Source: a virus. From it: a stretch of 34,026 bases of DNA. Below the pieces are notes generated by a model. The model made no database searches and was not told the DNA's origin. It was given only the letters and a program-made list of their open reading frames with translations. The stretch is taken from positions 1-34,026 of IMG/VR virus record IMGVR_UViG_3300005095_000056; one strand, given 5' to 3'. This document shows positions 3,136 to 30,330 of this stretch, in pieces; position 1 is the stretch's first letter; each line of letters opens with the position of its first letter. The position numbers were made by a program, and so were the translations under genes.

Positions 3136-3161
3136 TATTAATCCTTTTATAAGATGTTTCA

Positions 3162-3169
3162 TATAAATA
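3162..3169 (+). promoter_or_regulatory. T4-late-like promoter TATAAATA for the endonuclease gene
   Basis: TATAAATA on the plus strand, 41 bases upstream of the chosen ATG at 3211, in the divergent gap before the endonuclease. The octamer is expected several times by chance in DNA this AT-rich, so position and strand carry the argument. T4-type free-standing homing endonucleases commonly have their own late promoter. Confidence 0.45.
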
Positions 3170-3210
3170 ATGATAAGAATATAAAAAACAAAAAAAAAAG
3201 GATTGTTATT

Positions 3211-5208
3211 ATGAAACTAGAAGAAAGAATTAAAATACTTGAACAAAATAATTATACTGTTTTATTACATACAAAAAATAATTCAGGTGAAGTTATTTAT
3301 CATGTTAAGTGCAATAGTTGTAATACTGAATACAAGAAAACTTATTCACAACTATTAAAAGGCTGCACTAAATGCAAAAAGAAACAAGAAGCAATTAATA
3401 AGTTTCAACAAAAGATTGATTCAAAATTTGGTGAAAATAAATATCAAGTTATAGAATACATTAACTCAGATACAAAAGCAAAAGTTAAATGTTTAAGATG
3501 TGATTCAATAGTTGAGTTTAAACCGAGTGATTTGAGTAGGAAAAGATATATTTGTAAAAGGTGCTTAAAAGAAGGAATTGATTCATATGTTGATAATATT
3601 GTTATTCAAAAAGAAGAAATTCCATATGATCAAAAAATTAATTCAATCATTTCAAAATATGATTATATCATCTGTGAAAATTGTGATCAAGAAATAAAAT
3701 ACAACACACGATTAAAATTAATTTGTAAAAAACATAATTATTCATTCATAAAAGAAGCATCAAAAATACTTGAAACATTACACCCTTGTCCAAAATGTGC
3801 AAAAGAGATTCAAACATTAAATACCAAAAAGAAAAATTATGAAAAATTTATTCAAAAATCAAAAGAAAAATATAAAGATCAATTTTCATATTTTTCGTTT
3901 GAAGAATCAAAATTTGATAAAATGAGCACAAAAGTAAAACTTCATTGTAATAAACATAATCTTGATTTTGAGTGTGAAGTAAATAGTCATTTAAAATCAC
4001 CAGTAGGTGCATGTCCACAGTGTGTTTATGAATATAGATACTATTCTAAAGCATGTCCTGAAATTAATAAAGTATTTGATAAAGAAACTATGCAAAAAGA
4101 ATCAGATAAAAAATTTGGTTGGTATGAAATTCTTGATTATAAAGGCAGAAGTGGTATGTCAACTTTATTATGTAAAAAACATAATAAAGTTTTTAAAATA
4201 ATATCATATTACCACTTCTATTCAGAATCTGGTGCATGTCCAATTTGTTATCAAGAAAATAATGTTATGTTTAAAAAAGAATCCAAAACACAAAAAGAAA
4301 TATCAACTTATGTTAAAAATATCGTTGGTGAAGATAATGTAAAAGATAACATAAAAATTTTACAATCTTCAAGTAGTGATATAATAAAAGATATTGATAT
4401 ATATGTGCCAAGTTTAAAATTTGGTATTGAATATCATGGATTATTGTGGCATTCGTTTGGTAAATCAAAATATCCTTCATTAAATAATTATAATAAAATC
4501 CCTTCTAGAAGGAATGATCATAAATGGAAAGCAGATAAATGTGATGAATTGGGAATAAATTTATTTCAGATTTTTGAAAATGAATGGCTCGATCCAATTA
4601 AGCAATCAATATGGAAGTCTATGATTAATGTTAAACTAAATAATATTCATGACAAAATATATGCAAGAAGCTGCAAGATAAAAGAAATTACTGATAATCG
4701 TATTATTAAAGATTTTCTTACATATAATCATCTACAAGGATATTCACCGTCCAAAATAAATATTGGGTTATATTATAAAGGTGAATTAGTTTCAATTATG
4801 ACATTTTCAGAACCAAGGTTTGATTCTTCATATCAATATGAACTTATTCGATTTGCATCAAAGAAAAATACCATTGTTATAGGAGGTGCTTCTAAATTAT
4901 TTAAGTACTTTATCAAAAAGTATGATCCTGATTCAATTATCAGTTATGCAAATAGGAGGTGGAGTAATGGGAATTTGTATAGAAAACTTGGGTTCATTAA
5001 TCAAGGAATAACAACACCTAATCATTTTTATGTAAATCTTGGAGAAATGAAATTATATAGCAGGTTAAAGTTTACTAAAAATAAATTAGAAGAACTATTA
5101 GTTAATTATAATCCAAATAAGTCAATATTAGAAAATATGCTAGATAATGATTTTCGAATTATTTATGACGCAGGCAACTACAAATTTGTATGGAAAAAGG
5201 AAAAATAG
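3211..5208 (+). CDS. Free-standing homing endonuclease: zinc-ribbon repeats, Vsr-like (EDxHD) nuclease, Mom/GNAT-like C-terminus
   Basis: The ATG at 3211 is preferred over 3154 because AAAAAAAGGATTGTT precedes it and a TATAAATA box would otherwise lie inside the gene. The 665-aa product has four parts. Cysteine pairs at about residues 34/37, 52/55, 94/97, 115/118, 155/158, 193/196, 268/271 and 343/346 form repeated zinc-ribbon/treble-clef modules, several with CKKHN or CNKHN. Residues about 390-460 carry DIDIYVPSLKFGIEYHGLLW, then H437 and a CDELGINLFQIFENEW stretch, as in the Vsr/PD-(D/E)xK-like EDxHD homing nucleases (I-Bth0305I type). Residues about 485-610, with YANRRWSNGNLYRKLGF and TTPNHFYV, resemble Mom/GNAT-like tails found in phage endonucleases. 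It probably cuts and spreads between related phage genomes. Confidence 0.8.
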   Translation: MKLEERIKILEQNNYTVLLHTKNNSGEVIYHVKCNSCNTEYKKTYSQLLKGCTKCKKKQEAINKFQQKIDSKFGENKYQVIEYINSDTKAKVKCLRCDSIVEFKPSDLSRKRYICKRCLKEGIDSYVDNIVIQKEEIPYDQKINSIISKYDYIICENCDQEIKYNTRLKLICKKHNYSFIKEASKILETLHPCPKCAKEIQTLNTKKKNYEKFIQKSKEKYKDQFSYFSFEESKFDKMSTKVKLHCNKHNLDFECEVNSHLKSPVGACPQCVYEYRYYSKACPEINKVFDKETMQKESDKKFGWYEILDYKGRSGMSTLLCKKHNKVFKIISYYHFYSESGACPICYQENNVMFKKESKTQKEISTYVKNIVGEDNVKDNIKILQSSSSDIIKDIDIYVPSLKFGIEYHGLLWHSFGKSKYPSLNNYNKIPSRRNDHKWKADKCDELGINLFQIFENEWLDPIKQSIWKSMINVKLNNIHDKIYARSCKIKEITDNRIIKDFLTYNHLQGYSPSKINIGLYYKGELVSIMTFSEPRFDSSYQYELIRFASKKNTIVIGGASKLFKYFIKKYDPDSIISYANRRWSNGNLYRKLGFINQGITTPNHFYVNLGEMKLYSRLKFTKNKLEELLVNYNPNKSILENMLDNDFRIIYDAGNYKFVWKKEK

Positions 5209-5266: not shown

Positions 5267-6754
5267 TTAAGAGAAATTGATTAATCCTATACCTTGAGGT
5301 CTGATTAATTTTTTGCTATATCTTGATTTAAGTGTCAAGCTAGGCACACTTCCAAGAGGGAATGGTTGCATATACAATGGCTTATAGTAGTACAATCCAT
5401 AAACACTTTCTTTAGGGTTTGCAGATTTCAATAGTACTGGAACTTTTCCTTGTGGTACAAGTGGTGTAGTTAGGATTTTCCATTTGTTATTGATTGTTCC
5501 AATCTCATACGCACCACCTTGTAGTCCCATATCACCATCAGCTGCATTTCCAGTTGCTGTATATCCATTGATTGACTGGAATACTGTAGCATCAATTGGG
5601 TTTACAAGTAATACATTACCTTGACCAATGTTAGTATCGCTGTAGATGATGTTACTGATTTTGTTAATTACTGGAACAACATTTTCATGCCACGCTTTAG
5701 TACCAAATGCGAATGTGCTTGGTGGTTGAACTGTGAATGTATCAATTGCGTTTGCATGTTGATTTTGTGCGATACCGATTATATCTTGAATAATTTCGCT
5801 ATCGATTTCTGTTGCAATTTGTGCACCAAGAATTGCGATCATTTCAGATTTAATATCAATATCAAGTAATGCTTTTGCATCTTGTTCTAGTTCGATTGTC
5901 CAGTTAGTTTGTAGTGCTCTTTCTTTAGTGTTGATTTCAACTTTTTCAGTTTGTAGTTCAACTCTTCTGTTGAAATCATTCATTTCTGTAGATACGCTAC
6001 CAGCAAATACGATTTGTTTTGCATTTCCGTTAACTGCCATAATAGTAGCATCACCAGTTTTGAAGTTAACATTACCAACAATAATATCAGTAGTTCCGTC
6101 TGCTAGTGTAATTTCAGAACTATATACTCCACCATCAATTTGAACTGGGATGTCAACATCTACTGCGTTTCCATTTGCATCAAGAACTTTTACGATTTTA
6201 AGATCTCTTTCAAGAGATGCTTCAGTTGTTACGCCTACTACATCTGTTTTAATATTTCCGTTGAAGTTAAGATCAACTGGAGTATCAGGAATTGGCATAG
6301 ATGTAGTTGTATTGTAGTTTGGTAAGTTACCAATTACATTACCATCTTTGTCTTTCATTACATATTTAATGAAATATCTTACAACTGTTGGAGCTTCGAT
6401 ATTTTCAAGAGTTACAGCTTCTTTAGCTACAAGTCTTGGGAAGTATACTCTGATTAGTGGGAAAATCATTTTTTGGTATGGGTTAATTGTACCAAAAGTA
6501 GTTGCTTCCATTAAAGCTGATTCTCTTAGAATTGGAGCAGCTTTAGTAATTAGTTCTTTAGTAGTTGCGTCTGCACCTTCAGTAAGACCTTTAATATAAT
6601 CATTGAATGCGTCTTTGTTTGTTAAAAGCTTGTCAAATTCCATAAGTGGGTCAATATTATGCATACTTTTAACTGCATCATAAGACTCAGTTAAAACTTC
6701 TTTTACCACTTTAGGATTAACAGTCATTCCTGCTGAAACATTTTCTGCGAACAT
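5267..6754 (-). CDS. 23: Major capsid protein, T4 gp23-like
   Basis: This is a 495-aa shell protein of the T4 gp23 family (T4 gp23 is 521 aa). Diagnostic stretches are NWTIELEQDAKALLDIDIKS, matching the gp23 region before the conserved ATEI segment (here AQIATEIDSEIIQDI), and the C-terminal SRYSKKLIRPQGIGLINF. Prohead-protease-type sites LTE-S (residues 21-24), LRE-S (76-79) and LME-A (81-84) lie in the N-terminal region that is removed from gp23 in T4. The start follows AAAAAGGATACAAAC. In T4 this gene comes directly after 21 and 22; here a plus-strand island (6755-7673) separates it from the protease, so it must have its own promoter. No clear TATAAATA is seen upstream. Confidence 0.92.
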   Translation of the reverse strand: MFAENVSAGMTVNPKVVKEVLTESYDAVKSMHNIDPLMEFDKLLTNKDAFNDYIKGLTEGADATTKELITKAAPILRESALMEATTFGTINPYQKMIFPLIRVYFPRLVAKEAVTLENIEAPTVVRYFIKYVMKDKDGNVIGNLPNYNTTTSMPIPDTPVDLNFNGNIKTDVVGVTTEASLERDLKIVKVLDANGNAVDVDIPVQIDGGVYSSEITLADGTTDIIVGNVNFKTGDATIMAVNGNAKQIVFAGSVSTEMNDFNRRVELQTEKVEINTKERALQTNWTIELEQDAKALLDIDIKSEMIAILGAQIATEIDSEIIQDIIGIAQNQHANAIDTFTVQPPSTFAFGTKAWHENVVPVINKISNIIYSDTNIGQGNVLLVNPIDATVFQSINGYTATGNAADGDMGLQGGAYEIGTINNKWKILTTPLVPQGKVPVLLKSANPKESVYGLYYYKPLYMQPFPLGSVPSLTLKSRYSKKLIRPQGIGLINFS

Positions 6755-13611: not shown

Positions 13612-15483
13612 TTAGAATAGATCACCTTCATCTTCACCACCACCTGATTCTTCTGTTGCATTCATAATTTCTTCAATTTTTTCAGATAATTCTGCATCAT
13701 CAATAGTATCAATATCAAGCCAAGGTAATAATAATTTGATGAAGTATTTTTTAGGTAATCCAAGATTTTTAGCTGTTTCTGCAATAGTTCCTATATTAGA
13801 GAACATTTCACTCATTCTTTCAATAATAAGTGCTGTTGGCGGATTTAGTTTAACTTGAACATTATTAATTAATGGATCTGGACCAATAGTTTTAATATAT
13901 AATAGTTTAACAAGTTTATCGATCCCTCTATTTAATGGTCTTTGTATTTTAGCGATAGTTTTAGAATATTTAGCATTCATTTGTGCTAATGTATATCTAC
14001 TATCTTCTGGCCTTTCTAAACCTAAATAGTTAGGAGGTGTATCTAATCCAGATATAATTTGATCATTCATAAATTTTAAATCTTCAATTTTACTTTGTAA
14101 ATCACCTGATGGTTGAATTTCAATTTCAAAGAACTGTTGTCCTTGTCTCATAGGAACCCATAAATCTTCAAATTGAGTTAATTGTTTTGTTAATGTATCA
14201 ACATCCTGTGTCATATCAATAGCATATTTTCTTTGTGTTAACTCTCTTTTGATTTGTTGAATATATTTAGCACTATCATGATCAAGACCAATATCTACTT
14301 TAAATATTCTTATATCAGGAGCTCTTGTGAATCTATAGAGCATTGTTGCATTATTACCTATAATTAAATACTTTGCAAGCTCTCTAATAGCATCAAGTCT
14401 TGATGTTCCATAAGGAAATTTGTTACCAAGGTAATTATAAACCATATTATCAACAGGAATAAATTTAGTTTGTATATCACTTATTCCTTGATCATATGAA
14501 CTTAATAATTTAGCAACATATGCTTCATACTGTGGATTGCTATCAAGTAACTTTTTAACATTTTTAATATTTGAATCTTGGAATAATTTTGTTAAAACAT
14601 CACGAGCTAATTGCTCATTAGGGGTAATACTTCCTGGTTGTGGTATAATTACTAAAAATCCAAGTATTGTATTAAAAGCGTGAACGATTAATACATTTTT
14701 TGGACTAATAACATTTACTTCAATTTCATCTAAATTTGATAATAATGGTTCATCTCCATCTTTTTTATCATCTTCAAGTAATATCATACTTTCTGATAAT
14801 TGTAAAATATTATCATATTCTTTATCAAAATCAACAATATTAATTTGTGATTTTCCTTTTTCATCTTTTGACTCAAGAAGAGTGAATCTTTTTTCTAGAT
14901 AAAAATCTTGTTTATTTTCTTGAGGAATTTTTTCTTCTGAGTCTTGCAATACTTTATATTTTAATAGTTGCTTTTTATTTTCTTTAATCTCAATAAAATA
15001 ACAGCCGAATACAGCAAGATCTCTTGCTGCAGCTTCAGCAATACTTTCTAAATCTTTTGATTTTACAATATTTTTCATACTTTGAATTATTTTCTTTAAT
15101 TCAGGGGTAATTTCTACAAAACCATCAGTCTCATATCTAAAAACATTACTAAAATTATTATCAGGTGTAATTGTATTATCAACTAAAGTTTCAATTGCTG
15201 CTGCAACTGTTGGTAGTTTTTCCATTATTTTTTCGTAATCATTATATTTACTTAATCTATCTGGTTCTAAACTATATTGATTTTTTTCAGCTTCAGAAAA
15301 TAACTTCTCAACTTCACCATTTTTATCAATAGCATTACTCTCTGCTGATAAAAGAGAGTTTATAGAAATATTTTTTAACTGTTCAAAATTTGATGATTTT
15401 TCTAATGTTTTTACAATAATAGAATCTAAATCTACATTAGATTTAGTAACTAATTTTTGTAACGCTTCAAAAGGATTAGCCAT
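13612..15483 (-). CDS. 20: Portal protein, T4 gp20-like
   Basis: The 623-aa product (T4 gp20 is 524 aa) forms the twelve-subunit vertex through which DNA is packaged and to which the neck attaches. The key stretch is NNATMLYRFTRAPDIRIFKVDIG (about residues 377-399), the T4-family 'YRxTRAPExRVFYxDVG' signature. It is preceded by FPYGTSRLDAIRELAKYL and followed by the stem-forming LTQFEDLWVPMRQGQQFFEI. The GLERPEDSRYTLAQMNAKYS region fits the C-terminal wing and crown. Extra length lies in an acidic, low-complexity insert at about 200-250. The C-terminal run GGGEDEGDLF is acidic. The start follows AAAAGGCTAAATA. It is T4 gene order with the intervening core genes replaced. Confidence 0.92.
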   Translation of the reverse strand: MANPFEALQKLVTKSNVDLDSIIVKTLEKSSNFEQLKNISINSLLSAESNAIDKNGEVEKLFSEAEKNQYSLEPDRLSKYNDYEKIMEKLPTVAAAIETLVDNTITPDNNFSNVFRYETDGFVEITPELKKIIQSMKNIVKSKDLESIAEAAARDLAVFGCYFIEIKENKKQLLKYKVLQDSEEKIPQENKQDFYLEKRFTLLESKDEKGKSQINIVDFDKEYDNILQLSESMILLEDDKKDGDEPLLSNLDEIEVNVISPKNVLIVHAFNTILGFLVIIPQPGSITPNEQLARDVLTKLFQDSNIKNVKKLLDSNPQYEAYVAKLLSSYDQGISDIQTKFIPVDNMVYNYLGNKFPYGTSRLDAIRELAKYLIIGNNATMLYRFTRAPDIRIFKVDIGLDHDSAKYIQQIKRELTQRKYAIDMTQDVDTLTKQLTQFEDLWVPMRQGQQFFEIEIQPSGDLQSKIEDLKFMNDQIISGLDTPPNYLGLERPEDSRYTLAQMNAKYSKTIAKIQRPLNRGIDKLVKLLYIKTIGPDPLINNVQVKLNPPTALIIERMSEMFSNIGTIAETAKNLGLPKKYFIKLLLPWLDIDTIDDAELSEKIEEIMNATEESGGGEDEGDLF

Positions 15484-16042: not shown

Positions 16043-17353
16043 TTATTCTTCATCATCTTCATCAAAAGAAAGATCTAAATCTTCATCATCCTCTTCATCA
16101 TCATTATCATTATCATCATCTTCGTCTTCATCATTGTCGTCATCAGAATCTTCATCACCATCATCAAATTCTATATCTTCATCATCAGAATCATCATTAT
16201 CATCATCACAGCTGTTACTATCATCATCGTCAGAACTATCGTCATTGTCATCGCTGTCGCTGTCATCGTCAGAACCTTCATCGTCTTCGTCATCATCAGA
16301 ATCAGTTTCATCATCTGATTCGAATAAGAAACTTAAATCATCAGATTCATGAAGATCTTCGCTTTCTTGCATACTATCACATTCATCTAAATCATCAGCA
16401 TAACCGTGATCATATTCATCATATTCACTTGGTTCATAATCTGCTGGTAATTCGCCATGAGGTTCTTCAACATCAGGGATTCCATCACCATCTAAATCTG
16501 CTTCTGGATCTTCTGCATAAATTGGATTAATATCATCTTCTACATCAGCAGTATCAACAGCTACAGCTGGCTCTTCGATAACATCTTCTTCAGGATTTTC
16601 TTCTAGAAATCTATCTACAAGTTCAATATCAGCAGGATCTACATAATCTTCAGCAATTCCGTCAAAATCGTCATCAATTGCTAAATCTTCATCTTCGTCT
16701 TCATATAATCCTTGATTTCTAGTAGTGTGAGCATTCATATCAGAATCTTTTGATTCAACATCTCTAATAATTTGCTCAGATAATGAATCAAGTTGAGCCA
16801 TTGCTTCAGCTTCTTCTAAAATTACAGATTCTTCTAACGGTCCGATATCAGTAAATTCACTTTCAAGTAAATCTACATTTAGTGACTCTTCTAGAGCATC
16901 GATATCTGCAACATCACCGAATACATCATTTTCTGTTAATGCATCACTTTCACCATTATCAATAGCAAATTCACTTTCTAAAAACGCATCAAAATCATAA
17001 TCTTCAGATGCTACAGATGTCATATCTTCATTTTCAAATAATTGATTAACTACTTTATCAGTTTCGCTAATTAAATCATCAACATCATTTGATTTTTCAA
17101 ACGCATCGATATCAAGATTCCCATAATCATCAAAATCTAAACCTTCATCGAATAGTTCAAAATCTGGTTCATCAACTTCAGGTTTATCTGGATTTGAGAT
17201 TGGATCTTCTTTATCTCTTTTTACCTTGTCGAAAATTTCAGAAAACTTGATTTCTTCAAGTTCGTCTTGAATTTTATCAACTCTTGTAAGAGCATCACCT
17301 TCTAAAAGAGCATCTCTTACAACTTTTAATTCATCATTACTTAGCATTCCCAT
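16043..17353 (-). CDS. Very acidic head-core-like protein with many LxE-Ser protease sites
   Basis: The 436-aa product is dominated by Asp, Glu and Ser, and about the last 85 residues (from 350) are almost only D/E/S/N. Seven sites of the prohead-protease type (xxE-S) are visible: FLE-S (124-127), LEE-S (154-157), LLE-S (162-165), LEE-S (173-176), MQE-S (328-331), LHE-S (334-337) and LFE-S (343-346). ADLDGDGIPDVEEP (286-298) matches the calcium-binding thrombospondin-3-type repeat. This fits a scaffold or core that is chopped up during maturation, as T4 gp22 is; sequence homology to gp22 is not shown. The start follows AAAAGGATATAGTT. A DNA-mimic role is an alternative. Confidence 0.68.
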   Translation of the reverse strand: MGMLSNDELKVVRDALLEGDALTRVDKIQDELEEIKFSEIFDKVKRDKEDPISNPDKPEVDEPDFELFDEGLDFDDYGNLDIDAFEKSNDVDDLISETDKVVNQLFENEDMTSVASEDYDFDAFLESEFAIDNGESDALTENDVFGDVADIDALEESLNVDLLESEFTDIGPLEESVILEEAEAMAQLDSLSEQIIRDVESKDSDMNAHTTRNQGLYEDEDEDLAIDDDFDGIAEDYVDPADIELVDRFLEENPEEDVIEEPAVAVDTADVEDDINPIYAEDPEADLDGDGIPDVEEPHGELPADYEPSEYDEYDHGYADDLDECDSMQESEDLHESDDLSFLFESDDETDSDDDEDDEGSDDDSDSDDNDDSSDDDDSNSCDDDNDDSDDEDIEFDDGDEDSDDDNDEDEDDDNDNDDEEDDEDLDLSFDEDDEE

Positions 17354-17476: not shown

Positions 17477-18949
17477 TTACAGTAGAGATCCTAATGTATT
17501 ATCCTCACCAGGTTGTGTTGCAGGTATAATATTTTGTTGATACTGCTGGTCTCCTTGTTCTTGTGATACATTAAATAATGAATAAGTACTAAAATCAACG
17601 CCAAGTTTAAATGTAACACCTTTAATATAATTTCTTTGTTTTTCAATTTTCATAAATAATTCTTTTTGGTTTGCATTAGCAAGATTTATATACTCACCTT
17701 GCCAAGCAGCAATAACAACATCACTGTTATCAATAATACCAGAACTCTCCTTAATATCAGATAATGATAATTCACCTTTATCAAAAGAATCTTTTTTAAC
17801 TTGAACTCCTGTTACAACAGGAACATTATAAAGTACTGCGATATTTTTTAACCCTGCTGTAATTTCTTCAAGTTGTAATCTTTTTTCTGATCTTTGAGTA
17901 TCAGAAATCATAATTCCTAAGTAATCAACAAATATTGCTACTGGGAATTTACCTTTTACTTTTTCTTTTTCAATATATTGAATAATTCCTAATGGAGATG
18001 TAGTAAATCCTCCTCTATATTCCATATCAAGAACTGTATCAAATTCACTTAATTTTTCTTTCAATTCATCAATATTATTTTCTATATCTTTTATTGAATT
18101 TATAGGTCTCCCTAACACTCCAGGTAAATATCTCTCAAGTGATTCATCAATACTATTTTCAAATGTAAAATAATATATAGTAGGCTTTCCCTCAATTCCT
18201 GCATATTCTTCTTTCATTTTTTCTTGAATTATATTATAAATAGGTGTGCCTTGTTTAAGAATTCTTTGTATTTCTCTGGCAAGAGACAGCATCACTGTAG
18301 ATTTCCCATCACCTGATTTCATAGCGAATGTATATAATCTTGAACTATGTAACCCGCCATTCAAATATCTATCAAAATGTTCAAGTTCAGTATATAAAAC
18401 AATTCTATCTTTTAAATAATATTGTTTAATTCTTTCAATAATTCCCTCAATATTTTCAGCAGAGATTTCTATACTATCATCTGCTGCACTTTTATCAAGA
18501 TTCACTAATACATTAATAAGTTCACTCATTACTGTTTGGAAATTTTGTTTTATTTCTGAAGTAGATTTTAGTTCTTTATTCAAAATCTTCATAGATACTT
18601 CTTGTATCTTTTTAACATTTTTCATTATATTTATTGTTGATACTGTCTCATTAATTACATATTTTAATTGAACAATATCATTTTCTGTTAAAGTTTGCGT
18701 TTTTAGTGAGTTAATTATATCATCTGCAGTAAAGTCAGCAGCAATAACTGATGCTACTGCTTCATGTATAGTTCTATTATTCATTAGTTCTTTAACAATA
18801 TTTATTAATATTGACCCAATTGAATTTGATTCATCAATATATTCATTTTTGATTAAAGAATTTAAATTTCTTATAAAAGTTAAGTCATCAAATCCATCAT
18901 AATTTAATAAATATATTAATGCATTTTTTACATATGATAATGGCAACAT
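17477..18949 (-). CDS. 41: Replicative DNA helicase, T4 gp41/DnaB-like
   Basis: A 490-aa hexameric 5'-3' helicase (T4 gp41 is 475 aa). Residues about 1-170 are the helical N-terminal domain. The RecA-like core shows Walker A AMKSGDGKST (209-218), the catalytic Glu in YFTFENS (E264), Walker B VAIFVDYLGIM (D342) and the DNA-contacting/sensor stretch VPVVTGVQVKKDSFDKGELS. It then shows IKESSGIIDNSDVVIAAW, the DnaB-type segment before the arginine finger region. Gly is replaced by Ala at the start of Walker A. The start follows AAAAAGGATTGTATCA, with a TATAAATA box 19 bases upstream. A replication gene inside a virion operon is out of place compared with T4. Confidence 0.92.
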   Translation of the reverse strand: MLPLSYVKNALIYLLNYDGFDDLTFIRNLNSLIKNEYIDESNSIGSILINIVKELMNNRTIHEAVASVIAADFTADDIINSLKTQTLTENDIVQLKYVINETVSTINIMKNVKKIQEVSMKILNKELKSTSEIKQNFQTVMSELINVLVNLDKSAADDSIEISAENIEGIIERIKQYYLKDRIVLYTELEHFDRYLNGGLHSSRLYTFAMKSGDGKSTVMLSLAREIQRILKQGTPIYNIIQEKMKEEYAGIEGKPTIYYFTFENSIDESLERYLPGVLGRPINSIKDIENNIDELKEKLSEFDTVLDMEYRGGFTTSPLGIIQYIEKEKVKGKFPVAIFVDYLGIMISDTQRSEKRLQLEEITAGLKNIAVLYNVPVVTGVQVKKDSFDKGELSLSDIKESSGIIDNSDVVIAAWQGEYINLANANQKELFMKIEKQRNYIKGVTFKLGVDFSTYSLFNVSQEQGDQQYQQNIIPATQPGEDNTLGSLL

Positions 18950-18968
18950 TGATACAATCCTTTTTAGT

Positions 18969-18976
18969 TATTTATA
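18969..18976 (-). promoter_or_regulatory. T4-late-like TATAAATA before the helicase gene
   Basis: The minus strand reads TTATATAAATAACTAAAAAGG; the octamer TATAAATA ends 19 bases before the helicase ATG, giving a leader of about 13 bases by T4 spacing. It falls in the short gap after the preceding gene. The octamer alone is common by chance here. Confidence 0.45.
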
Positions 18977-18981
18977 TAAAA

Positions 18982-20472
18982 TCACCAACCTCTCCTATAT
19001 TCACTTGGAACATTAAGTTCACCGTGTTTGAATATCTCAAGATCAGGAAATACTCTTTTATTCATTTGTAATATTTTATCATGATTTAATTCTTGCAATA
19101 GTTCAACAGCTTCCCAATAATTTTTCATTTTTGCATGAAGATTTCTTGTAAGTTTTCCTTCATTTAGCATCATTAAATATTGCTCAATAACATGATTAAA
19201 TTTAATTCTATCACCTTTTTCATAATAATCAAGAGCAATATCAGCCATTTTAAGTGCATAGTTTTGTAAATTACTATAGAACATATAACTTGTTAAAATA
19301 ATATAAGCCCAATATTTTTGATTTATTCTATAAGTTGATCTATTATCATCATACAGATAAATTTCTTCTTGTGAAATATCAGGAAATCCATAATCATTAG
19401 CAATTTTTCTCACTATTTTTCTTAAAAGAGCAGCATTTGTGATATCAGCACTTAATCCATGAACTCTTTTTTCTAAATCTAGAGATTTAAAACTCACTGT
19501 TACAAGTTTATTATTCAAAAATACTCTAAATTTTGCTGCAGCAGATTGTCCTCTTAAAATAGATGAACCATCATTTGATACATGTAAATTGATTCCATGA
19601 AATCTTTTTGCACTTCTTTGAATCAATGCAAATTGTAGGAAATCTAATGGTGCCATTACTCCAAGAATATGTAATAAATAGTAATCAGCCCATAAATTTT
19701 CTTTAATTCCGTGAAGAATTAATGCTGCAGGAATTACATATAGTGGATAAGCTACTGTTTGCGGATTGCTTCCTTGTGCAACACCACCAATAGCAAATTT
19801 ATTCATCTTTTTAAATATATCATATTTTACATGTAAAGCATCCCATAAATTTAATAATTGTCCTTTAAATTGTAAAACCCAAATTATTTTTTGTAAAGAT
19901 TTTTCATCAAGTGTGCTTAACATATTATCACATGATTTACAATTTGCTTCCCATAATATTTGAGGATGAGTAAATCCTGGTGTTGGAATATCTGCATGAA
20001 TATCCAAACTAAATGCAAAATCAACATCATCACTATTATGAACAAAATCAAAATAGTGTTCAGTCCATGTTAAAGCATTTTCTAATGGTAAATATCCCAT
20101 GATTACCTGGTGACCAGCACTATCTAGCATTAATTTATGTTTTTTAAGAAATGGCTGTTTCTTAACAGAATGAATATCTTTGTTGAAATAATCTTTTGCT
20201 TTACCATTAATAATACCTTCTTTTTGTTTCTTAGGGTCATGTCTATTTGTAGTCATATATAGACCTGTTGAATAAATATATCCCGGAAGATATTCATCTA
20301 AAAATTTAGTTATTCCTTCTACAGTAAATGTCCCTTCATTAATTCTTCTCTCCATAATCCCACTTGAAGTAGTGATTGCTGCTTCAATAAAAGATAGTGA
20401 ATCATCAAATTTATTATTTCTTGTAGAATCAATTAATCTATATTTATCATCAATATGAACTAAATTATTCAC
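18982..20472 (-). CDS. TGT-superfamily protein, DpdA-like (7-deazaguanine insertion into DNA or tRNA)
   Basis: The start is taken as the GTG at 20472, because AAGGAGATTGTA lies directly before it and the ATG at 20490 has no ribosome site; this gives 496 aa. TGT landmarks appear in family order: LDSAGHQ (D117; DSGGFQ in TGT), SLDIHADIP (D157; the substrate-recognition Asp), LQFKGQ (Q201), AIGGVAQGSN (Gly-Gly 229-230), HILGVMAPLDFLQFAL (the LMGVGxPED segment) and SNDGSS (D301, candidate nucleophile). TGT enzymes swap guanine for preQ0/preQ1 in tRNA; the phage DpdA branch does so in DNA. The usual C-terminal zinc site is missing; a CKSC pair lies at about 178-181. Length fits DpdA better than tRNA enzymes (about 375 aa). 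No preQ0 genes are in view. Confidence 0.74.
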   Translation of the reverse strand: MNNLVHIDDKYRLIDSTRNNKFDDSLSFIEAAITTSSGIMERRINEGTFTVEGITKFLDEYLPGYIYSTGLYMTTNRHDPKKQKEGIINGKAKDYFNKDIHSVKKQPFLKKHKLMLDSAGHQVIMGYLPLENALTWTEHYFDFVHNSDDVDFAFSLDIHADIPTPGFTHPQILWEANCKSCDNMLSTLDEKSLQKIIWVLQFKGQLLNLWDALHVKYDIFKKMNKFAIGGVAQGSNPQTVAYPLYVIPAALILHGIKENLWADYYLLHILGVMAPLDFLQFALIQRSAKRFHGINLHVSNDGSSILRGQSAAAKFRVFLNNKLVTVSFKSLDLEKRVHGLSADITNAALLRKIVRKIANDYGFPDISQEEIYLYDDNRSTYRINQKYWAYIILTSYMFYSNLQNYALKMADIALDYYEKGDRIKFNHVIEQYLMMLNEGKLTRNLHAKMKNYWEAVELLQELNHDKILQMNKRVFPDLEIFKHGELNVPSEYRRGW

Positions 20473-20507
20473 TACAATCTCCTTGTTCATTTTTAGTTTG
20501 TTTGAAT

Positions 20508-20515
20508 TATTTATA
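20508..20515 (-). promoter_or_regulatory. T4-late-like TATAAATA before the TGT/DpdA-like gene
   Basis: The minus strand reads CTATATAAATAATTC just after the terminator of the tape-measure gene. By T4 spacing transcription would start near 20502, leaving about 30 bases before the GTG at 20472. Terminator followed at once by promoter argues for a new transcription unit. Confidence 0.5.
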
Positions 20516-20516
20516 T

Positions 20517-20564
20517 AGAAAAAATAAAAAGAAGAGTAGATCTCATTAAGAGAAATCTACTCTT
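20517..20564 (-). terminator. Terminator after the tape-measure-like gene
   Basis: On the minus strand AAGAGTAGA pairs with TCTACTCTT (plus 20556-20564 and 20532-20540), with a partly paired inner loop (TCTC/GAGA), then CTTTTTATTTTTT. Confidence 0.88.
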
Positions 20565-23500
20565 GAATTTCCACCTGTTGTAATAGTATTCTGTGCAACA
20601 TGAGTGCTATTTGTTGAAACATGTGTATTTGACATATTGTTAATAACTTGTTGATTATTAATAATAACAGGCATATTAACTTGTGCTTCTTTTGTTGTTT
20701 CAGTTTTAGTATGCACTTCTTTAGTTTGTCTATATGTTGCATTTCTATTTGTGATTAATTGTTCAGCAAGTTCAGTATATTGCATTGTTAAACCTGTTGG
20801 TTTTGTGTTATTTTCTGCAATAATATTTTGATTATTTGAAATCTGTTCACTTACATTACTTACTAAGTTACTATTTGTAATAGTAGGTTTTGTTATGTTT
20901 GTAGTAATTGTTGTTTGTTGAGTTGGTGTGTATACAGGTTGAGTATTTTGTGCAACTACTGCTTTTTCTACTTGATATGGTGTTATATTTGTAGTTCCTA
21001 CTACATTAGATGCAACCATTGTAGGAACATTTATATTTTGATCAAGTATTTTAGTATTAGCAGATGCTACTTTATATTCTGTTTCAGTTAATGTATTTAT
21101 AAGTTTCGCAAGTGTTGATTTATCTTTAAATTTAAGTGAACTTATATTAATATTATTTTTAACAAGTAAACTTTCAAACTTATCTCTTGTAACATATAAT
21201 TGTTTTTCAGCTATTTGTTTTACAAGAGTATTAAGTCTTTGATCTTCAAATTTTCCTTCATATTTTTTAAATACTGAACTTAATACTTTATTGGTAACAG
21301 GACTTTGTGTTAATACAATATTTTGTGCTACAGGATTAACAACAGGAGTAGTTATGTTTGATGTTACTGGTTGTTGAAATCTAGATATATTCGGTATATT
21401 ATATGAAGCAACTGTTGTTTTGGGAATATTTATTGTTTTATTTTGAACAAATGCTTGATTTCCTCTTGTTATAGGCGTTACTGATGTAACAGTAACATTA
21501 TTACCATTTACATTTAAATTAATATTTAGATCAACTATAACTTTTGGAATATTTTTTAATGTTGTAGTAGTTGTAATTATATTTTGTTTAGATTCATTTG
21601 ATACAACAGTATTTTCAACAGGTGTTGGTTTTGTTGAATGTAATGCAGCAGTTAATGTTGTAGCAGTTGTACTTGGTGCTGTTGTATGATAAATTTCTGT
21701 TTTTGTTGTTGTATTTTGTGCAGGTTGAATATTAGTTGGTGATGGTGTTCCTGCAACTAATGATGTTGCAAGTGCTGTGCTTGCTAGTAATTTTTTAATA
21801 GGTGATGATTTTTTAGTTGGTTGTTCATTATTATAGTTTGTGTTATTTGATGCAACAACAGTTGATACACTTTGTGGTACTCCACTTTCAGCAACAATAG
21901 TTGGAGTTATTGGATGTTCTTGTAAATATTGTCTATATTTATTATCAAAATCCATCATTTGTGCAACAAGTTCTCTTGATCTTCTCCCTGTTTGGAAATA
22001 CCAAGCAGAATCTTGCATTTCTATTGCTGCTTTTCTATAATCACCTTGTTTAATGGCTCTGAGCATTTTCTTAAATTCGCCAAGTTTACCAACACCCATA
22101 TTAAATGCCATATCAAGTAAAATATGTTGAACTTCTAATGGTTGTTTTTTAACCCAAGGATATTTTGAATAAAGAGCTTTTGCAGTTCTTGCTATATCAT
22201 AATATAGAATAGTTTCATTTTCTTCCATTGTAATAGTGTCTTTATCAACACCAATAATTTTTCTTAATGGAATTCCGCCATGTGCTGTATCAATATTATG
22301 TCCAGTTCCTATTGTCCAAATACCTTTACTATCTTTATATTTATGAAGTTTAACACCTTCATATCTTTTAATTCTTTTTGCAAATTCATGTATATTAGGC
22401 ACAAGTCTTGCAGCTTCATTATAATATTTTTTATACAACAATTGAATTTTATTTTCATTACCAGTTATTTTTAAAGGTTTTGCATAAGTTAATTTTGGTT
22501 GAGATGTAATTCTTACATTTTTTAATTCTTTATTGTATCTATTAACATTATTATTAACAGGAATAACTGGTACTTCTACATTAGGTTGTGTAAATGTTGT
22601 TATATGTTGTTCTTTATTAACAAAATCATTTACTGTTTTATTATTAGGAATTACTGTATGTTTTGGCTTATATGATGTTGTTGATACTTGTTGTTTAATA
22701 GGTTTTACTGGTTTAGGTGGAACTGCCTTAACAACATTTTTATTTTGTGGTTCACTCACATGTTTAATTTCAGGTTGAACTACAGAACTTAATGCAGTTT
22801 TTAAGTCACCTGTTTCTTTATAAGTTTCAACAAATTTCTCCATCTGTTTATCAGTTAATCTATAACCTGCAACACGCCATATTTTATTTTTAACATCATA
22901 AACAACTGCTGCATTTTTCTTATTTTTACTTTCAATTGAATAAACTAAAAATCCATTTTCAGGAGCATAACCTAATACTTTATATTTAGATTTATTGAGA
23001 ATTTTTTCTTCACTCTTAATTGCTTTTAAAACTTGACTAACTGGTAAAAATTTTTGTTTAATAGTTTCAGCAAGTTTTTTAGGAACTTTACCTGTTTTAG
23101 TAAATGCTTCTTTTACTTTATAAATATATTCATTAGGAACAAATCTTCCCAATACCGCCCATCTTTTAACTTTATCTGAATAAAATAAAGATAATCTATT
23201 ATGTCCTTTTTCTAAAAATCCAACAGCAGTTTCACCATATTTCTTATTATGTATTACTCTTAAGCTTTTAATTCCTTTTGGAACTAAATGAGTTTTCATA
23301 AATTCAAGAGCTTCTTTTTGTCTTTCATACTCTTGTTTTTCATATTCATTCATTAAACCAAATTTGTATTTAAAACTTTGAATATAACTATAATATTTTT
23401 TAGTTGCTTCTTCTTTATCAATAAATCCTAAAGAAAAATGATCAGCAAGTGTCCCTAAATACATAGAAACTGATTGTGATGTTGAAGCAGGATTATAGTT

Positions 23501-26170
23501 ATCACCAAATATTTTTTTACCTTCTTTATCTCTATTAACAATATTACTAGTAATATCTGCTGTTAACATTAAAGGTTCAGCAACTTTACCTAAAAATTTT
23601 AATGGTTTTGATACTACTTTTAATACTTTACTTTCTTTTATACCTGTTTTGATTTTTTGGAGAATAGATTTTTCTTTCACTTTTCCAAATTTATCAGTTA
23701 CATTTTTTACAGTATCAGTAACTTTCTTAACTGGTGTTTTAGCTTTAATTTTATCTTTTAATAAAGTAGCAATTCCTAATGCACCAAGAACTTTAGTTCC
23801 TCCAGGTATAACTTTAAGAATACCAACAACGCCTTTAATAATAGCTTCACCTATTGGTTTTATTTTATCAACAACAATGGATGCTGCTGTTGATATATTT
23901 TTTATAACTTTATTTTCTTTGAAGAAATTTCTTATACTTGTTTTTATGTTATTGAGAAAAGCATTTCCTGTTAGAAAATCTTTAATTGAACTAACCACGC
24001 CTTTAATTTTAGAAACAATACCCTGTATAAATTCGTTACTTTTGATATATTTATATAAGTTTTCAACTTTTGAAGAGAGTGAAGCAAATATTTTTGAATC
24101 TTTTAATCCTGTTACTAATTTTTTAATATTTTCAATTGGATTTTTGACAAATGTTTTTAATCCATCAAATATTTTTGTAAATAGTGGTAATGTAAAGAAC
24201 TTTTTCGCAAGTGAGCCGATTGTTAGTGCTGCCTTACCTACATTTTTTACAAGAGAAAATATTCCACTCACTCCTTTTTTAAGCATAGCCATAAATCCCA
24301 ACCCACCAATAGCAAGTAATGCTGTTTTAAGTAATCCAAATCCTGATCCTATAAGCCCTGTTACATTACTTAATAAACCGCCTAATCCTGCAAGTAGTGA
24401 ACCAAAAATACCACCTTTAAATAATGACTTACTCTTATCAATAACAGTTTTACTATATTTATGCTCTTTTAATAGTTTTTGTAACAAAGAAATCATTTTC
24501 TTATCACGAATTTCTTCTCGTTTTTCTTTTCTTTGTTCTCTTATTCTTTCAGCAAATCTTTCTTTTTGTGACCCAAGAGCATCAGAAATCTTTTTAAGTA
24601 AAACTTTTTGTTTTGATAAAATTTTAATTTCTTGTTTTTCTGCTTTTGTTTCACTCTTTTTAACAATTGCTTTATTACTTATTGATTTTATTACTGAAGA
24701 TTCTTTTAGTTTTGTAAATAATTTTTTAGTATTATTTACAATAGTTTTTGCTAACGATTTTTCTGATCTCTTATCTAAAATTACTGTTATCTTATTTATA
24801 GTACTTTTACTCGGTATATTTATTGCTTTAGCACTAGCAATAGCTCCTGTAGTTGCACCTGTTACAATTTTTTGTTTTTTAGTAACTTTTTCTTCAATAA
24901 TAGATTTTGGTTTTTTAAATATAGAAAATACACTTTTAACTTTAGAAATTAAAGTAGTTCTTTCTTTTTGTGATTCACTTTTTTGTTTTTCTCTATGTTT
25001 TCTTGCTTCTTGTCTGTTTTTTTCTTGTTGTTTTTTAATATCAGTAAAAATCCCACCACTAATAGTTCCAGTAGCAGCACCTGCCACAGTTGATGGTCTA
25101 AATGTAGTTGCTGATTCTTTAACAGGTTCAGGTTTGTATGGTTTTTTAGAAAAGAATCCTTGTTTAAATTCACTAAACTTAGCAAATGGTGAACCTTCAC
25201 CAGCTTTACCTAATGTATGACCTTCACTTATTTTTCCAAGTTTAGAAACAGCTCCATATATTTTAGATATAAGTTTATTATTCTCACCGAATGCTGTTCT
25301 TAAAAGATCAACACCTTTTTTAACTGAATCAACTCCTTTAATTAATGCTGCTGATGTTTTAACAGCTGCTGCACCTGATTTAGTTGGTGAAAATATTTTA
25401 GACATTAATCTTGTAAATAAATATTTAACAGGACTAAACATTCCTTTCATTAACCATTTACCAACAGTAAGAATTGAATCTTTAATTAATCCTATTGCTT
25501 TTTCAATATAAGGCCAAAGCATTTTAACAAACGGACCTAAGAAACCTGCATTTGTTAATATATTTGCGAAGAAATCATCAGTTGATGTAACAAAATTAGA
25601 CGCCATTTGTTTTACTTCATTAGAAATAACTGTCCCTATTGTTTTCATATACTTAAATGCTTCTGATCCTGTTATTTTAATTATATCAATTGCTGTTTCA
25701 AATTTTTTAATTAATTTATTTTTAAGAGTGACTCTTCTTGCTTCTTCTGCTCTTAATAAACCAGTAGAAGTAACAGATAAAAATTGTTTTAATAAAGGAT
25801 TGTTTGTTGTTTCTATAAGTTTCCTAATAGTAGGTGCAAGTAATTGAACAGCTTCTTCTTGCATTCCTACAATACCAGCCAGTTTAAAAACTAAATTAGA
25901 AATAACATCAAGATTATGAGCTTTATCAAAATATTTTCCTTGTTTATAAGCTTCACTAATTTTATCTTTGTTTTTCCATTGCTCATAACCTTCAGCATAT
26001 TTTCCTACAAATTTTCTTGTTATTTTTTCATCAAAACTTTTTGTAGCATTATTTATTTTTTTGAACAATGATTCACTAAATCTTGTTTGTTCAGGAATAT
26101 CTACATCTTCAGCTGGTTTATTCATAGCTTCGCTGAATGATGTGTTAAATTTTATTTTTCTATCTTCCAT
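20546..26170 (-). CDS. Tape-measure-like virion protein with embedded T4-type lysozyme
   Basis: The 1874-aa product has several zones. Residues 1-330 are helical with hydrophobic patches; about 370-570 is a basic, K/R/E-rich coiled region. Residues about 580-810 are long Gly/Leu/Ile-rich hydrophobic helices (for example FGSLLAGLGGLL, IGGLGFMAML), as in tape measures. About 965-1131 is a duplicated module. About 1255-1410 is a GH24 lysozyme with E1271, D1280 and T1286 in exactly the T4 lysozyme spacing (E11, D20, T26), including WTIGTGHNID. About 1420-1874 is T/N/V-rich low complexity. The protein probably sets tail length and digests peptidoglycan at DNA entry. It is much longer than T4 gp29 (590 aa), so a long tail or a different internal virion role is possible. 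The start follows AAAAGGATTTATCT. Confidence 0.78.
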   Translation of the reverse strand: MEDRKIKFNTSFSEAMNKPAEDVDIPEQTRFSESLFKKINNATKSFDEKITRKFVGKYAEGYEQWKNKDKISEAYKQGKYFDKAHNLDVISNLVFKLAGIVGMQEEAVQLLAPTIRKLIETTNNPLLKQFLSVTSTGLLRAEEARRVTLKNKLIKKFETAIDIIKITGSEAFKYMKTIGTVISNEVKQMASNFVTSTDDFFANILTNAGFLGPFVKMLWPYIEKAIGLIKDSILTVGKWLMKGMFSPVKYLFTRLMSKIFSPTKSGAAAVKTSAALIKGVDSVKKGVDLLRTAFGENNKLISKIYGAVSKLGKISEGHTLGKAGEGSPFAKFSEFKQGFFSKKPYKPEPVKESATTFRPSTVAGAATGTISGGIFTDIKKQQEKNRQEARKHREKQKSESQKERTTLISKVKSVFSIFKKPKSIIEEKVTKKQKIVTGATTGAIASAKAINIPSKSTINKITVILDKRSEKSLAKTIVNNTKKLFTKLKESSVIKSISNKAIVKKSETKAEKQEIKILSKQKVLLKKISDALGSQKERFAERIREQRKEKREEIRDKKMISLLQKLLKEHKYSKTVIDKSKSLFKGGIFGSLLAGLGGLLSNVTGLIGSGFGLLKTALLAIGGLGFMAMLKKGVSGIFSLVKNVGKAALTIGSLAKKFFTLPLFTKIFDGLKTFVKNPIENIKKLVTGLKDSKIFASLSSKVENLYKYIKSNEFIQGIVSKIKGVVSSIKDFLTGNAFLNNIKTSIRNFFKENKVIKNISTAASIVVDKIKPIGEAIIKGVVGILKVIPGGTKVLGALGIATLLKDKIKAKTPVKKVTDTVKNVTDKFGKVKEKSILQKIKTGIKESKVLKVVSKPLKFLGKVAEPLMLTADITSNIVNRDKEGKKIFGDNYNPASTSQSVSMYLGTLADHFSLGFIDKEEATKKYYSYIQSFKYKFGLMNEYEKQEYERQKEALEFMKTHLVPKGIKSLRVIHNKKYGETAVGFLEKGHNRLSLFYSDKVKRWAVLGRFVPNEYIYKVKEAFTKTGKVPKKLAETIKQKFLPVSQVLKAIKSEEKILNKSKYKVLGYAPENGFLVYSIESKNKKNAAVVYDVKNKIWRVAGYRLTDKQMEKFVETYKETGDLKTALSSVVQPEIKHVSEPQNKNVVKAVPPKPVKPIKQQVSTTSYKPKHTVIPNNKTVNDFVNKEQHITTFTQPNVEVPVIPVNNNVNRYNKELKNVRITSQPKLTYAKPLKITGNENKIQLLYKKYYNEAARLVPNIHEFAKRIKRYEGVKLHKYKDSKGIWTIGTGHNIDTAHGGIPLRKIIGVDKDTITMEENETILYYDIARTAKALYSKYPWVKKQPLEVQHILLDMAFNMGVGKLGEFKKMLRAIKQGDYRKAAIEMQDSAWYFQTGRRSRELVAQMMDFDNKYRQYLQEHPITPTIVAESGVPQSVSTVVASNNTNYNNEQPTKKSSPIKKLLASTALATSLVAGTPSPTNIQPAQNTTTKTEIYHTTAPSTTATTLTAALHSTKPTPVENTVVSNESKQNIITTTTTLKNIPKVIVDLNINLNVNGNNVTVTSVTPITRGNQAFVQNKTINIPKTTVASYNIPNISRFQQPVTSNITTPVVNPVAQNIVLTQSPVTNKVLSSVFKKYEGKFEDQRLNTLVKQIAEKQLYVTRDKFESLLVKNNINISSLKFKDKSTLAKLINTLTETEYKVASANTKILDQNINVPTMVASNVVGTTNITPYQVEKAVVAQNTQPVYTPTQQTTITTNITKPTITNSNLVSNVSEQISNNQNIIAENNTKPTGLTMQYTELAEQLITNRNATYRQTKEVHTKTETTKEAQVNMPVIINNQQVINNMSNTHVSTNSTHVAQNTITTGGNSRVDFS
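22778..23278 (-). repeat. Duplicated protein module inside the tape-measure-like gene
   Basis: Two stretches align: residues about 983-1036 (VGFLEKG, LFYSDKVKRWAVLGR, VKEAFTKTGKVPKKLAE) and about 1072-1130 (NGFLVYS, VVYDVKNKIWRVAGY, FVETYKETGDLKTALSS). Shared positions are GFL, a Y-x-x-K-x-x-W-x-V-x-G strand pair and a K/E-rich helix ending xTGxxxxxL. The DNA copies have diverged, so the duplication is old. Confidence 0.6.
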
Positions 26171-28444: not shown

Positions 28445-29359
28445 ATGTCTATCGAAGTAAATCCTCAATCTGTATTATCAATGAAAACACAAATGGAATC
28501 AAGTATTCAACAAATTGCAAAACAAAGTTATGTTGAAGCTAAAAGCTCAAGATTATTTAAAAATCCATTTGTAGGAATGAGATTATTTGTACTTGCTAAA
28601 TTACTTGGTATAAAAGATTATAATAATTTATCGAGTGAAGGATTAGTTGAAGAAATTAGATTAAAAATTGCTCAATCATTTAGTTTAAAACAGTTAGCTA
28701 TTGTTGGTTTAATAGTTACAGATACTGTTCAGTATGAATTAATGAAGAAAATGCCTTTATTAGTTCCTGATACTCTTGTTCATTTTTTAGTAAATAAAAT
28801 ATTAACACCATTAGTTGATAAATTGATATCAAGAACATATAAAGTTGACACTAGAGATGTTGTATTAGAAGCCTTTTATATTGCAGCAGTTTCTAATGTG
28901 TATTTAGATTTAAAATCAACAAAATATGAATTTGAAAATTTAAGTGAACAAGAAAAAATAAAATATGTTAAATTTGTAGTTAAGAATGCTTTTATGTTAG
29001 GAAGTTCATATGATTTATCACAATCTATTGCTGATAAGATAGGTGTTGGTAAATCTTATAATAATTTTAGAAGCTTTTATATGATCTATAAATTTTCAAG
29101 ATTTTATAAACAATATAAATTTGAAATTACATCTGCAAGATTTGTAAATTTATTTACTGAAAGAATTAAAGTTGCTGTTATGAGAATTTTAGGTAAATTT
29201 ACTGGTAACAAATATTATTGGGTAATTAGAGGTTTATTTGATGTAATACTTGGACCTTTGATGATTGCTGTGTTATTAGACTTTGGTGAAGTGAGTAAAA
29301 GAATGGCTGACTCTTATAGAGGTTCTGAACAAAATTTGTTAAAAGGAATTGAACTATGA
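28445..29359 (+). CDS. Membrane-associated protein, first of two tandem paralogs (304 aa)
   Basis: The start follows AAAAGGTTACAGAT. The product is helical and hydrophobic in places, with candidate membrane segments at about residues 82-97 (KQLAIVGLIVTDTVQY) and 262-283 (IRGLFDVILGPLMIAVLLDF), and no signal peptide. Residues 80-150 align with residues 70-140 of the next gene: D-x-x-QY-x5-M-x3-VPD, then P-L-V-D-K-L-I against P-V-I-K-K-I-D and a shared A-x-Y segment. So the pair arose by duplication. Stop and next start overlap (ATGA). No known family recognised. Confidence 0.75.
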   Translation: MSIEVNPQSVLSMKTQMESSIQQIAKQSYVEAKSSRLFKNPFVGMRLFVLAKLLGIKDYNNLSSEGLVEEIRLKIAQSFSLKQLAIVGLIVTDTVQYELMKKMPLLVPDTLVHFLVNKILTPLVDKLISRTYKVDTRDVVLEAFYIAAVSNVYLDLKSTKYEFENLSEQEKIKYVKFVVKNAFMLGSSYDLSQSIADKIGVGKSYNNFRSFYMIYKFSRFYKQYKFEITSARFVNLFTERIKVAVMRILGKFTGNKYYWVIRGLFDVILGPLMIAVLLDFGEVSKRMADSYRGSEQNLLKGIEL

Positions 29360-30306
29360 AGAATGAAAAAATAGTATATAAAGAAATTGAACAAGCTAAA
29401 AAACTTTATATGCCTTTAGTTATGAAAAGTTATGCAAGAGTTAAACAGAATACTACAGGAATTAAAAATATTTTCTTATCATTAAGATTTGAAATGATTA
29501 ACCAGGTATTAAACATTAATATTAACTCTCTTGATGAATTAAAAAGAATACAACTAACAAAACAACAAGAAAGAAAATTATTACTAGTATTATTTGTTGT
29601 AGACTTCTTTCAATATAATATAACAAAACATATGCATCATATTGTTCCTGATAGTGTTGTTAATGCAATTTTAAAATTATTGTATTATCCTGTTATTAAA
29701 AAAATTGATAAAATTATCACAGGAAAATCAGTAAATTTAGATAATAAATATTTATATGATAGTGCGTGTTATTCAATTCTTATCGCAGTAAGTACTCATC
29801 ATGATTTAGGTATTCCCAAAATTAACCCAAAAATAATAAAAGATGATGAGTGTGATAAAACCGAATTAAAGAAAGCATTCACAAGTATCATTGCTATGAC
29901 TGAATCGTTTTCATTAAGTGAATATTTATTAGGATTAATTGATCCACGCTTAAAAACAAAATATATTAACATGCAACTTATCTATTCGATAGGAAAATTA
30001 TTATTTGATGCAAATAGATTTAAAAGTTTATATATAAAGAGTAATTCTGAAAAAGCAGCACATGATTTTGGGACATATACAGCAATAATTGCAGTACTTG
30101 CTAATTCAATAATATATAATATTGTTCAAAGATTAATTAAATCAAAAATTTCTATTTATGTAAGAGCATTTTTAGTTTTATTTGTTGAATCTTTTGCAAT
30201 TTATTATTACATTAGACAATTATTTTCTAGTATATTTGATCATGATTTTGATTTTGAATTTAATTTTGATGGCGCATTTGATAATGTTATTCCTGATAAA
30301 ATTTAA
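29356..30306 (+). CDS. Membrane-associated protein, second of two tandem paralogs (316 aa)
   Basis: The ATG at 29356 overlaps the stop of the first paralog, so translation is probably coupled and the two may form one complex. Hydrophobic stretches lie at about residues 74-88 (KLLLVLFVVDFFQY), 136-146, and 270-295 (YVRAFLVLFVESFAIYYYIR, then LFSSIF). The shared block includes VVDFFQYNITKHMHHIVPDS. A C-terminal run of alternating D and F (DHDFDFEFNFDGAFDN, about 298-312) is absent from the first copy and is unusual. Function unknown; an envelope or membrane remodelling role is only suggested by hydrophobicity. Confidence 0.75.
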   Translation: MKNEKIVYKEIEQAKKLYMPLVMKSYARVKQNTTGIKNIFLSLRFEMINQVLNININSLDELKRIQLTKQQERKLLLVLFVVDFFQYNITKHMHHIVPDSVVNAILKLLYYPVIKKIDKIITGKSVNLDNKYLYDSACYSILIAVSTHHDLGIPKINPKIIKDDECDKTELKKAFTSIIAMTESFSLSEYLLGLIDPRLKTKYINMQLIYSIGKLLFDANRFKSLYIKSNSEKAAHDFGTYTAIIAVLANSIIYNIVQRLIKSKISIYVRAFLVLFVESFAIYYYIRQLFSSIFDHDFDFEFNFDGAFDNVIPDKI

Positions 30307-30330
30307 ATATTTTTAATTGTATATAAATAA

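Follow-up and report, generated by a model that had tools for sequence, protein, structure and literature searches.

Enzymes of the TGT/DpdA superfamily replace guanine by a modified base, either in tRNA or in phage DNA, and the DpdA enzymes insert 7-deazaguanines into DNA, thereby shielding phages from restriction. The preQ0 genes are commonly, and not universally, found beside the genes for DpdA and DpdA2 or elsewhere in the same genome. The DpdA2 of Vibrio phage nt-1 is encoded by a T4-like phage whose DNA contains dPreQ0 and dG+, and phages with DpdA alone also exist and may draw on a precursor from the host (PMC6884629). In Cap10 of type IV CBASS the TGT-family fold has been reshaped so that it binds a deazaguanine attached to a protein (PMC11996544). 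The gene analysed here lies in a linear virus fragment of 34,026 bases with 24-30% G+C, and this whole stretch is referred to as the window. It occupies positions 18982 to 20472 on the minus strand and encodes 496 amino acids from a GTG, or 502 amino acids if an alternative in-frame ATG at 20490 is used (18982 to 20490). The GTG at 20472, which the first-pass annotation had also chosen, is preferred because the ribosome-binding site AAGGAG (20479 to 20484, minus strand) lies six nucleotides before it and nothing comparable is found upstream of the ATG. Residue numbers are counted here from the ATG and are therefore six higher than those in the first-pass annotation.

Every sequence landmark that had been listed for this minus-strand ORF was found again and in the same order, namely LDSAGHQ at residues 122-128 (D123), SLD at 161-163 (D163), LQFKGQ at 206-211 (Q207), AIGGVAQGSN at 233-242 (G235 and G236), HILGV at 274-278 (H274) and SNDGSS at 305-310 (D307). 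The ordered catalytic landmarks of the TGT superfamily (the Asp of DSxG, FD, Q, the GG loop, xLG and the nucleophile Asp) are thus present, as judged with the controls given below. In all four MAFFT modes D123, the candidate general acid/base (codon 20122 to 20124, minus strand), aligned to D76 of nt-1 DpdA2, and D307, the candidate nucleophile (codon 19570 to 19572, minus strand), aligned to D266. From TGT chemistry we take the aspartate aligned to D123 to be the general acid/base and that aligned to D307 to be the nucleophile. The candidate base-recognition aspartate D163 (codon 20002 to 20004, minus strand), which would correspond to the FD of FDEIP in DpdA2, was opposite D112, the Asp of FDEIP, in one of the four modes and was gapped in the other three. 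H274 (codon 19669 to 19671, minus strand) is the equivalent of His196 of DpdA in the H-x-[LF]-G motif, here H274-x-L276-G277, and its column is His in 33 of 33 aligned DpdA2 proteins and also in the 9g-type DpdAs, whereas E. coli Tgt has a Tyr at this position. Neither the query, which has only Cys184 and Cys187, nor any of the 33 DpdA2 proteins has the CxCxxC zinc motif that is present in E. coli TGT. A separate observation concerns nt-1 DpdA2 itself (L108, 12913-14307), where H235 is invariant among the aligned DpdA2 proteins and occupies the H-x-[LF]-G position of His196, contrary to the description of DpdA2 as lacking the conserved His196 of DpdA (PMC6884629).

When the query protein was searched against the family libraries Pfam, PHROGs, NCBIfam and PADLOC and by sequence against the PDB, no match was found. 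No relative was detected by tblastn against phages and plasmids up to an E value of 10, in viral contigs searched with the single protein and motif masks, or in genome contigs searched with a motif mask. Two phage matches (H1 and H2, E 0.3-1) were rejected as they are located in unrelated ORFs, and a 500-aa ORF near the portal gene of Atu_ph07, considered for its length, was rejected as it does not have the motifs. Scans based on the helicase and the portal gave no close relative, the capsid-based scan gave 80 distant loci, and in the related phage records behind them (41-48) there was no detectable relative of the query, no DpdA and no conserved neighbourhood. This silence is not evidence against a TGT, because the Pfam TGT model (PF01702), which gives E. 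coli Tgt 560 bits, matches neither the accepted 9g DpdA and nt-1 DpdA2 nor the query. Likewise, hhalign with shallow profiles is uninformative because it fails not only for the query but also between DpdA and DpdA2. The DpdA2 family model, whether the PHROG or our DpdA2 HMM, did not recognise the query with a significant score. In plain HMMER against DpdA2 the p value by shuffles was about 0.02-0.03, and 20 of the 757 shuffles that were reported, as well as 15 of 317 decoys, scored at or above the query. The HMMER match to DpdA2 and DpdA is only suggestive.

In these searches no pairwise, HMM or hhalign score of the query was significant by itself, and plain HMMER gave a weaker signal than the calibrated tests. 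A DpdA2 set was built from nt-1 DpdA2 (YP_008125322) and six phage relatives, which led to 80 viral loci and 40 non-redundant sequences, and six blocks taken from the DpdA2-only alignment were scored in order with a spacing tolerance. The query scored 38.8 bits, while the maximum among 412 unrelated ORFs was 24.5 and none of them reached the query; the block edges were chosen when the query had already been viewed next to the aligned DpdA2 proteins, a choice that may slightly inflate this test. Shuffled sequences had a mean of 9.7 bits (sd 5.0), and one of 20,000 reached the query (maximum 42.4); in a first run of 3,000 none did. The only other outlier was E. coli TGT at 41.5 bits, which was not used in building the model and therefore supports the specificity of the blocks. 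Whichever block was left out, the query stayed above all unrelated ORFs, and with the DSGG block omitted 14 of 2,000 shuffles reached it. In the reversed-ORF control the single match was the query itself, reversed twice. At 37 columns that are invariant in 33 DpdA2 proteins the query matches 18 and differs at 19, the changed residues including the Ser that follows the nucleophile (G308 in the query) and the Gly that follows the strand-4 Gln (F208 in the query). Among 160 controls, 80 shuffles matched a mean of 9.9 columns (maximum 15) and 80 unrelated ORFs a mean of 9.9 (maximum 14).

The comparison of an AlphaFold model with TGT and DpdA had been proposed as a check. From the single sequence the pLDDT was 34.5, too low for the model to be informative. 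With 33 DpdA2 rows it was 55.4 with a pTM of 0.58, and this guided model has alternating strands and helices, with D123, Q207 and D307 at strand ends. In VIA-align of the guided model TGTs were 49 of the best 50 solved-structure rows (Z 11.8-13.2), where their Z was barely higher than the 11.9 of one unrelated barrel-like chain. Foldseek gave a TGT as the top solved match (E 8e-4) and nt-1 DpdA2 as the top viral match. The guided model is thus consistent with a TGT-like barrel at low confidence, and it is partly circular because the DpdA2 rows steered it, so that it counts as consistency and not as independent proof.

Taken together, the calibrated tests and the alignment-guided model support homology, and the query protein very probably belongs to the TGT/DpdA superfamily. 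Both catalytic aspartates, the glycine-rich loop of the base pocket and the DpdA-type histidine are retained. We conclude that it would be an orphan branch, one that none of the tests run places in a named family. Within the superfamily the DpdA side appears favoured over the tRNA-TGTs by the His196 equivalent, the lack of CxCxxC and DpdA2 as the closest profile. An enzyme acting on tRNA, with which the phage would re-tune wobble bases of host or phage tRNAs during infection, is an unlikely alternative. Consistent with it, the DpdA2 block test gives E. coli TGT and the query similar scores, the top of the fold list is taken by solved TGTs and Q207 is reminiscent of the Gln in the GIxQG motif of TGT. 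However, the zinc motif is missing, a His and not a Tyr precedes the glycine of HxLG, there is no tRNA gene in the window and the closest family is the DNA-modifying DpdA2. It is more unlikely still that there is no TGT homology at all and that another TIM-barrel or unrelated protein matches the motifs by chance. This would agree with the lack of any individually significant search, with the decoys that HMMER puts above the query and with the guidance of the model by DpdA2 rows, but the block test and the invariant-residue test, both with matched controls, and the independent alignments that concur on both aspartates argue against it.

The position of the gene between a tape-measure-like gene and a helicase was confirmed. 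Its upstream neighbour encodes a tail/tape-measure-like protein of 1874 aa (20546 to 26170, minus strand) with an internal T4-type phage-lysozyme domain (residues 1268-1402) and a T/N-rich low-complexity tail; the top profile partners of this protein belong to families of tail lysozymes and of internal virion lysozymes. The downstream neighbour is a DnaB-like replicative helicase by profile matches (17477 to 18949, minus strand). The gene had been credited with a terminator of its own, but the terminator-like hairpin at 20532 to 20564 (minus strand) overlaps the stop region of the 1874-aa gene and would terminate that gene instead, and a terminator scan between the TGT/DpdA-like ORF and the helicase found none. 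For the late-like promoter that had been noted, the T4-late-like motif TATATAAATAA, which contains TATAAATA, lies upstream of the gene at 20507 to 20517 (minus strand). A second copy is between the gene and the helicase (18968 to 18978, minus strand) and a third is before another gene (30320-30330), so that three are found in the window against 0.40 expected, while the 8-base core by itself is not enriched in the window. As had been noted, no preQ0 pathway gene is in view, none having been matched by Pfam among the 27 proteins scanned from this 34-kb fragment, and most of the phage genome probably lies outside it. The least likely alternative is a repurposed TGT fold, acting for example on a 7-deazaguanine-protein conjugate or being an inactive part of the virion or of the replication machinery, for which Cap10 is a precedent (PMC11996544) and with which the location among virion genes and the 19 altered invariant residues of 37 agree, but the retained residues are the catalytic ones (D123, D307, H274 and G236), needless in a scaffold, and PADLOC gave no match.

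The window holds other genes of note. Two adjacent ORFs of 304 and 316 aa (28445-30306, plus strand) are paralogous (28% over about 100 aa, E 4e-7) and have no family match. Between head genes at 3154-5208 (plus strand) is a 684-aa protein in which, by eye, CxxC zinc-ribbon units are repeated and the C-terminal part resembles a nuclease; it has no Pfam match and is perhaps a homing endonuclease. Between the helicase and the portal at 16043-17353 (minus strand) is an extremely Asp/Glu/Ser-rich protein of 436 aa with no family match.

The fragment encodes a T4-type portal, a Gp23 capsid, a prohead protease and the DnaB-like helicase. Its capsid (5267-6754) and portal (13612-15483), on the minus strand, are about 20-31% identical to their counterparts in jumbo myophages such as AR9/PBS1, BpSp, phiR1-37, PALS_2, Atu_ph07 and two huge-phage assemblies, and the remaining portal matches are T4-type enterobacterial phages and cyanophages. 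Some AR9/PBS1- and phiR1-37-like jumbo phages have DNA in which uracil replaces thymine. No close relative of the whole phage was found in the databases searched. An analogy had been drawn to phages of Campylobacter, but it is weak, as nothing in the window indicates that host, and it is irrelevant to this gene because those phages, which carry dADG, are listed among phages having no DpdA (PMC6884629).

The explanation that we consider probable is that the gene product is a strongly diverged guanine transglycosylase of the DpdA type, the most likely role of which is base exchange in DNA late in infection. The protein would fold as a TIM barrel in which D307 attacks C1' of the guanine nucleotide and guanine is released, D123 would serve as the general acid/base, D163 and Q207 would hold the incoming base, and a 7-deazaguanine, preQ0 or a derivative, would be inserted in place of guanine. 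The substrate polymer would be the phage's own DNA, modified late, as the T4-late-like promoter and the adjacent helicase and head genes suggest, and the modified DNA would be shielded from host nucleases. The precursor may come from the queuosine pathway of the host or from phage genes beyond the 34-kb fragment. A more far-reaching possibility, which we put forward tentatively, is that a deep-branching group of T4-like phages, with distant ties to those of the AR9/PBS1 type, carries a DpdA lineage of its own that has so far gone unrecognised. Its gene, next to genes for replication and for the head, would be expressed late, and the enzyme would modify the phage's own DNA with a host-supplied precursor. 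Alternatively, and just as tentatively, a TGT fold may have been turned against a deazaguanine-based host defence. As a diverged DpdA, the gene would show that further branches exist beyond family models that miss even accepted DpdAs, and hypermodified phages are therefore probably under-counted. D123, D307 and H274 are the residues whose mutation would directly test the function.

Among the known systems, Cap10 is a defence-system protein that has the TGT-family fold in common with the query by description only (PMC11996544), and the PADLOC defence models do not match the query. Bacterial TGT (E. coli Tgt, PF01702) shares the LDSGGFQ-like motif, the GG loop, the nucleophile Asp and, as predicted with low confidence for the query, the barrel, but the query has neither the Pfam match nor the CxCxxC site of that enzyme, and His replaces Tyr before the glycine of HxLG. 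The 9g DpdA and its relatives (phrog_887) share the DS motif, the GG loop, H-x-x-G and the Asp-Ser nucleophile region; however, 9g DpdA has 317 aa and is encoded near DNA polymerase and preQ0 genes, and the block similarity of the query to this family is lower than that to DpdA2. Compared to nt-1 DpdA2 and its relatives (phrog_10773) the query is 15-19% identical, half of the DpdA2-invariant residues are changed, there are about 50-80 extra N-terminal residues and folE, queD, queE and queC are not among its neighbours. Yet it is with this family that the query shares the order of the landmarks at nearly the same spacing, both aspartates, H-x-L-G, a T4-like phage as the carrier, a similar length (464 compared to 496-502 aa) and an alignable C-terminal part free of the zinc motif.
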